43,805 nucleotides of DNA from Asaia bogorensis (GTDB lineage Bacteria; Pseudomonadota; Alphaproteobacteria; Acetobacterales; Acetobacteraceae): positions 1 through 43,805 of the forward strand of contig CAMDAM010000003.1 in assembly GCA_945888575.1 (NCBI GenBank), written 5' to 3'. Shown here piece after piece: positions 1,718 through 2,306 of the stretch. Below the pieces are notes generated by a model. It was not told the DNA's origin, ran no database searches, and was given only the letters and a program-made list of their open reading frames with translations. Numbering within the stretch: the first letter of the stretch is position 1; each line of letters starts with the position of its first letter. The position numbers were made by a program, and so were the translations under genes.

Positions 1718-1772
1718 GTGCCCCACCCCACACACCGACAAAGCCCCCCCCAAAAAAACCGCCCCCCACCCC

Positions 1773-1801
1773 TTGCATCTCTAACGCACGTTAGTTATAT
1801 T
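1773..1801 (+). promoter_or_regulatory. Promoter with palindromic operator between -35 and -10
   Basis: TTGCAT (1773-1778), a 17-nt spacer and TATATT (1796-1801) form a plausible sigma-70 promoter. The -10 matches the consensus at 5 of 6 positions; the -35 at 3 of 6. The spacer contains the perfect palindrome CTAACG-CA-CGTTAG (1781-1794), placed to block RNA polymerase. The start ATG of the next gene is at 1808, just 6 nt after the -10 box, so transcription should begin at or next to the ATG. Confidence 0.6.
1781..1794. promoter_or_regulatory. Palindromic operator CTAACG-CA-CGTTAG
   Basis: Perfect 6+6 bp inverted repeat with a 2-bp centre, sitting in the spacer of the promoter for the gene at 1808. 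Size and symmetry suit a dimeric helix-turn-helix repressor of the TetR or MarR kind. No regulator gene of these families is in the window, so the binding protein is unknown. Confidence 0.55.
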
Positions 1802-1807
1802 CCCGTC

Positions 1808-2185
1808 ATGCACACCTCTCCTCCCACCCTCCCGGCCCTCATCGCCGGCCTGCGCACCGCCCTGGAAGCGGACGCCCGAGGTGTGTCCAATCTCCTCCTC
1901 ACCCTCCTCCTCCGCCTGCTCGCAAGCCTCGAACCCCTCGCCCGCACCTGGCACGCCACCACCCGCCAAGCCCCGTCCGAATACGACCAGGATGGCCGCC
2001 TGCGCTTCCACCTGCGCCTGCGCGATGCCCGCCGCGCCCGGATTCTGTCCCGCGGCTCCCGTGGCCGCCGCCGCATCCCCACCTGGCGCGCCCGCAACCG
2101 CGGCGCCCGCTCCCTCCCCAGCCGCGCCCGGGCCCCCGCGCGCCCCATCCCCGCCCGCGCACCACCCCACGCCCACCCCGCCTGA
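1808..2185 (+). CDS. Small Arg/Pro-rich protein of unknown function
   Basis: 125 codons, ATG at 1808. The reading frame uses almost only G/C-ending codons, like the accepted genes around it, which supports real coding. The N-terminal half carries a leucine-rich stretch (SNLLLTLLLRLLASLEPLA, about residues 27-45) that could be an amphipathic helix. A short acidic segment with YDQDGRLRFHLRLRDA follows, and then a very basic tail of Arg, Pro and Ala. No helix-turn-helix, signal peptide or known domain is recognised. There is no Shine-Dalgarno sequence; the ATG lies where transcription should start, so a leaderless mRNA is likely. It precedes the dioxygenase gene by 121 bp on the same strand. Function unknown; overprediction is possible given the low-complexity tail. 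Confidence 0.5.
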   Translation: MHTSPPTLPALIAGLRTALEADARGVSNLLLTLLLRLLASLEPLARTWHATTRQAPSEYDQDGRLRFHLRLRDARRARILSRGSRGRRRIPTWRARNRGARSLPSRARAPARPIPARAPPHAHPA

Positions 2186-2306
2186 CTCCAGCGCCAAACC
2201 CATCCCGCCAACCCATGCCTATTTTATTACGATATCAAAATTAATTTCCCCAACTTGCCTCCACCCCGCTCCCCCGCCATCCTCCCCGCACCGGAGGAAA
2301 CCAACG
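2186..2306 (+). promoter_or_regulatory. AT-rich upstream region of the dioxygenase operon
   Basis: Within otherwise GC-rich DNA, about 2217-2250 is strongly AT-rich and contains GATATC and an ATTTT...AAAAT inverted repeat. This is the likely promoter region for the TauD/GMC pair. No convincing -35/-10 pair can be singled out. The Shine-Dalgarno GGAGGA is at 2293-2298, 8 nt before the ATG. Confidence 0.4.

Follow-up and report, generated by a model that had tools for sequence, protein, structure and literature searches.

An inverted repeat that sits between the two recognition elements of a promoter raises a simple question, namely whether it serves only the gene that follows or marks a larger set of genes under shared control. 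We studied such a site in a window of 43,805 nucleotides (the whole stretch of DNA analyzed here). The original prediction described a promoter with a palindrome in its spacer and an apparently leaderless start, driving a small gene of unknown kind under a repressor encoded elsewhere, and it allowed for a wider regulon. The features of the locus, in window coordinates, are these:

1743 to 2244, plus strand: whole cassette (A-tract, promoter, ORF, 3' palindrome), delimited by inter-locus homology and by an empty site in relatives
1752 to 1758, plus strand: A-tract 5' of the -35 region, recurring in the family
1772 to 1778, plus strand: -35 region CTTGCAT, with TTGCAT at 1773-1778 and a CTTG that is invariant in the family promoter alignment
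1781 to 1794, no strand: operator-like inverted repeat CTAACGCACGTTAG, arms at 1781-1785 and 1790-1794, read from the sequence and supported by arm enrichment and the sister genus
1796 to 1801, plus strand: -10 hexamer TATATT, from the sequence and the promoter alignment
1808 to 2185, plus strand: class B cassette protein, 125 aa and stop, with its start codon at the predicted transcription start
2223 to 2243, no strand: 3' palindromic element TTTATTACGATATCAAAATTA, the sole match in the window (0 mismatches), conserved across genera

The sequence confirms the coordinates of TTGCAT-N17-TATATT and of its palindrome. The 17-nt spacer (1779-1795) contains a perfect inverted repeat, CTAACG-CA-CGTTAG, and the ATG (1808-1810) lies 6 nt past the -10, behind a pyrimidine-rich stretch with no Shine-Dalgarno (SD) sequence. 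The A-tract at 1752-1758 is possibly an UP-element-like sequence. The transcription start is predicted at about 1807-1809, at the ATG; position 1796, which had been given as the limit for it, is the -10 itself.

Judged by its full length, the palindrome would look like an isolated site. The pattern has a single match in the 43.8-kb window at two or fewer mismatches (0.41 expected by shuffling), and the 4.95-Mb genome has a single occurrence of the exact pattern CTAACGNNCGTTAG. This uniqueness would suit an operator of one small gene under a distant TetR/MarR repressor, a reading that we consider very improbable and that is largely refuted by recurrence: a looser core turns up some 30 times per genome, ahead of genes for related members of the family. 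Because the exact 14-mer is unique, the genome scan originally proposed, for the 14-bp palindrome alone, would miss the regulon. Relatives keep only the 5-bp arms CTAAC-N4-GTTAG, and the inner G:C pair of the 14-mer is variable; as a part of the operator this pair was rejected, having been lost in orthologs and paralogs. The expected conservation in related genomes is found for the arms: orthologs retain them, although in G005 they have partly decayed, and they also persist in several subfamilies of paralogs and in a sister genus.

Upstream regions of orthologs and paralogs have in common an A-tract, CTTGC, GTTAG, TATAT, and an ATG a few nucleotides on. The pattern CTTG-N14..19-AGTTANNTAT-N5..13-ATG has 33 matches in eight of the nine genomes of the window's genus, and the reversed pattern has none. 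A 39-nt, sequence-only promoter model, which matches the window at 1766-1802 with 33.5 bits, finds 14-32 sites per genome in all nine, counts that are lower bounds because the searches behind them were capped; most of the genomes are, moreover, fragmented assemblies and MAGs, in which copies may be missed. At E<=0.01 the model matches only 7 of 150 Acetobacteraceae genomes, three of them in the window's genus; it was trained on family members, and its matches are therefore no unbiased sample of the genome. Of the 61 sites read in the genus, almost every one precedes the start of a member of one diverse protein family. The suggestion of a wider regulon thus stands insofar as the site is multi-copy, but the regulon would consist essentially of the gene's own hyper-expanded paralog family and not of assorted genes.

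The promoters of this set share a fixed core, CTTGCA-N12-GTTAGT-TATATA, in which CTTG and the GTTAG directly before the -10 are nearly invariant across the genus. The gap from -10 to ATG is 6-9 nt at 52 of the 61 sites, and none of 53 units has an SD-like 4-mer. The apparently leaderless layout predicted for the window is accordingly a group property, about 53 of 61 units sharing its geometry, and it is from this spacing of -10 and ATG that we infer a leaderless start. Leaderless mRNAs are common in alphaproteobacteria (PMC4117421). As in those of Caulobacter and Sinorhizobium (PMC4117421), the start codon coincides with the transcription start (here a predicted one) and SD sequences are absent, whereas here the arrangement is a fixed trait of one dispersed paralog family.

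The partner arm, CTAAC, is less regular. It lies within the 14-nt spacer at 24 of the 61 sites against 1.6 expected (maximum of 8 in 2000 shuffles) and downstream at 20 of the 61 against 1.5 expected by shuffling. These shuffles take no account of common descent, but about eight divergent subfamilies show the N4 form. The commonest geometries are GTTAG-N8-CTAAC (18 sites) and CTAAC-N4-GTTAG (14 sites, spread over those subfamilies), and across the genus an upstream partner stands at N1-N4 and a downstream partner at N8. This recurrence of both arms in family promoters supports the view of the window palindrome as operator-like. At about one-third of the 61 sites, a GTTAG-like box stands without an exact CTAAC partner, a point that counts against a dedicated regulator and fits an account in which there is none. 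GTTAG and TTATAT would then form the extended -10 of a particular, possibly alternative, sigma factor, the promoters would have been copied together with their genes, and CTAAC would be incidental. Consistent with this account, GTTAG in genus g1 abuts the -10 and keeps a constant distance from CTTG; moreover, only copies of one family carry the motif, as co-duplication predicts. We nevertheless regard it as unlikely, given the 13- to 15-fold enrichment of CTAAC on both sides of the -10.

The sister genus (g5) bears on the same choice. In its genome G134 the arms are longer (AACTAAC-N3..6-GTTAGTT, 14 sites; reversed-pattern control, none), and all 14 sites stand before family genes: the 11 read directly lead into class A proteins (see below), and the others lie beside class A matches. 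On one strand, one of these sites reads CTAACGCACGTTAG, identical to the repeat of the window. The 7-bp arms are kept while the distance from -35 to GTTAG shifts between 14 and 18, which argues against the sigma-factor account. A second g5 genome, G012, has none of the AACTAAC/GTTAGTT sites. In a further genus, a single locus (L138/L336; G098:C23:204529-204543) carries the promoter CTTGCA-CTAAC-N3-GTTAG-TTATATAT along with a second palindrome, CTAACC-N5-GGTTAG, and an SD-like GGAG; it precedes an unrelated predicted Pro-rich protein with a hydrophobic segment, and the class A search gave no match in that genus.

In its placement between the -35 and -10 of a single-gene promoter, the inverted repeat resembles operators of dimeric repressors (TetR, MarR, XRE). 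It differs from them in that the arm spacing is variable (N1-N4 and N8, or N3-N6 in the sister genus), a variation that is unusual for a rigid dimer and weighs against our preferred reading, in that the partner arm may be on either side, and in that no regulator gene has the site among the family sites read. No repressor gene lies near the window site, as had been foreseen. The TetR/MarR gene that was expected to carry the palindrome upstream was not among the sites read, and neither the 61 genus sites nor the sister-genus sites read include any regulator gene, a search that covers regulators bearing the site. A conserved S24 phage-repressor-like protein (L272, L274, L277, L279) was considered as an autoregulated repressor and rejected, as the DNA scanned has no CTAAC/GTTAG upstream of the S24 region.

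A clearer parallel comes from genera in which the family has another operator. GTTC-N7-GTTC, the reported alphaproteobacterial LexA motif (PMC8565304, PMC7987155), lies at the -10/start of 12 of the 12 family genes read in G122 and G123, is absent elsewhere in 46 kb (both strands) of family loci there, and is found also at single family genes in three more genera (G065, G136, and G074). Read from its promoter boxes, the family in G122 and G123 looks to be under LexA control, like the LexA/SOS genes of Alphaproteobacteria. The window's genus and its sister differ in having CTAAC/GTTAG at family promoters, while in the window's genus the classical box is retained at lexA and recA. This box is upstream of lexA in 12 of 12 genomes tested (four of the window's genus) and of recA in 10 of 11 (three of the window's genus), the exception, G122, being cut at a contig end; no CTAAC/GTTAG repeat occurs upstream of lexA in four genomes of the genus or of recA in three. 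Conversely, 0.6 Mb of cassette loci in the window's genus (both strands) contain three GTTC-N7-GTTC boxes, none at a cassette promoter, and the window site has none. Because lexA and recA keep their box, CTAAC/GTTAG is not LexA's operator, and we rejected its interpretation as a diverged LexA box; since it stands in place of that box in the window's genus and its sister, a different regulator would act there. That LexA operators occupy the same place in other genera is a further argument against the sigma-factor account.

The proteins behind these promoters form a family of their own. A search with the 125-aa ORF returned orthologs at 62-94% identity and paralogs, in the same genus only. Class A proteins (~210-230 aa) have the form ...APQAARLLRPLCHALG...PPRPRKPR..., and class B proteins (~110-200 aa), among them that of the window gene, combine a helix rich in L with a conserved W and a tail rich in Arg and Pro. 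BLASTP at E<=1e-4 connects most members; the window pair, L091/L118, and L134 are linked to the remaining family only via shared architecture and weak alignment. Values of dN/dS are 0.36-0.46 for the window protein against close orthologs and 0.16-0.55 in most family pairs, and the latter range indicates protein-coding (purifying) selection. Class A proteins were found in 33 of 150 genomes and 24 of the 102 genera sampled in Acetobacteraceae, often at >=20 copies per genome, and a search of genome contigs gave one match, in an Acetobacteraceae pond MAG. The description of the gene as unknown holds: the family has no Pfam match above cut-off, none in NCBIfam or PADLOC, a chance-level match only in PHROGs, none in a PDB sequence search, and none at E<=0.001 in fold searches of PDB and BFVD. 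The plasmid and phage records searched contained no family member, and a literature search found no paper on it. The predicted model is confidently helical for class A (pLDDT 84, pTM 0.69) and a single long helix with a low-confidence tail for class B; the KPRPPKPRR-like tails suggest that the proteins may bind nucleic acid.

Promoter and gene are parts of a discrete unit. Homology to a second locus of the subfamily covers 1743-2236 (L083) or 1760-2244 (L326) of the window, that is, about 1743-2244 if an upstream dispersed repeat is set aside, giving a cassette of ~500 bp whose junctions are approximate because neighboring repeats differ. Among paralogs, similarity begins some 30-40 nt ahead of CTTG and fades out 45-60 nt or so past the stop, and some of them have a further dispersed repeat in common upstream. 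The window cassette is flanked by a PLP-enzyme gene and a tauD-like gene, which in G008 and G003 are adjacent with the cassette absent. The second locus, which adjoins an acyl-CoA-dehydrogenase-like gene (annotation by reading), is intact in G007 and G008, frameshifted in the window's genome (L083), and reduced to remnants in G001 and G005. The unit is thus discrete, present or absent at one site, and found also at non-homologous sites, as a mobile cassette would be, and its history at the two subfamily loci is one of birth and death. A family 3' palindrome, GTTACGATATCGTAAC (consensus TTRTTACGATATCGTAACWA), follows shortly past the stop; like the cassette limits and the LexA boxes of other genera, it was no part of the original prediction. 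Of 60 genus loci, 45 have it, and 298 kb contain one chance-like spot outside the units. It is recognizable at about +20 to +27 past the stop in about ten genera, and at <=3 mismatches is essentially absent from shuffles.

Such properties would also be expected if the cassettes were a mobile or selfish element whose operator and 3' palindromes are recombination or hairpin ends with no regulatory role; the presence or absence of the ~500-bp unit at a site, the decaying old copies, and the conserved 3' palindrome all agree with this. We find it doubtful, since the 5' palindrome is internal to the unit and is replaced in other genera by a LexA box, which is no inverted repeat, since no recombinase was found, and since many cassette sites are conserved between G000 and G005. 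Mobility and regulation are, in any case, not mutually exclusive. REP/RAYT elements, integron cassettes, and IS200/IS605-type units likewise have many dispersed copies, a 3' palindrome, and presence/absence between species, but each unit of this family comes with a promoter of its own and encodes a conserved, divergent protein, and no transposase, integrase, or array was identified with the cassettes.

Our preferred reading, to which we give a probability of about 0.72, is that positions 1743-2244 of the window hold one of the many copies of a dispersed cassette with a family-dedicated regulator, most likely a repressor, acting at a leaderless promoter. Transcription from TTGCAT-N17-TATATT would begin at the ATG or within a few nucleotides of it. 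The regulator would recognize GTTAG beside the -10 together with its CTAAC partner and, when bound, would block RNA polymerase; we infer repression because the operator overlaps the promoter and because of the LexA parallel in other genera. A single signal may then de-repress all copies together. Given the LexA boxes on the same family in related genera, silence until DNA damage or similar stress is probably the common logic.

This looks like a previously undescribed cassette family, large and jointly switched, with dozens of copies across a group of freshwater Acetobacteraceae. It would matter as a database-orphan family under purifying selection whose copies within a lineage are, to judge from their promoters, tied to a single kind of operator, that of LexA in some lineages and a different one in others. 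The difference between lineages would be a natural experiment in how the operators of a whole regulon are replaced, and the family-wide operators predict a large, unrecognized SOS-type response. More tentatively, the cassettes could be a new, self-contained kind (regulated leaderless promoter, helical Arg/Pro-rich protein, and 3' palindrome) that has reached >=20 copies per genome in some Acetobacteraceae; LexA or a lineage-specific repressor would silence the whole set, and DNA damage or another signal would switch it on and perhaps mobilize it.

Several minor observations concern the surroundings and decay of the cassettes. Directly upstream of the window cassette, positions 1557-1715 hold two copies, in inverted orientation, of a dispersed repeat (ggccacagagacacagaggcacagag / ctctgtgcctctgtggcc) that is also upstream of many other cassettes. 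The cassette-less intergenic regions before tauD (L310/L311) have other dispersed hairpin repeats instead, for example CTTCTTTTTGTGAACAAAAAGAAG, which are common near cassettes. One downstream neighbor gene is preceded by different cassette types across species of the genus (L100 and L122 vs. L134), which we read as possible site re-use or replacement. Decaying copies exist besides L083: in L104 (G005, MIQ-type), a frameshift interrupts the class A reading frame some 46 codons in. Finally, in MIQ-type copies (e.g., L079, L086, and L090) a GGCCGCG...CGCGGCC inverted repeat spans the stop codon and is followed by ATATTATT, possibly an intrinsic terminator overlapping the 3' element.
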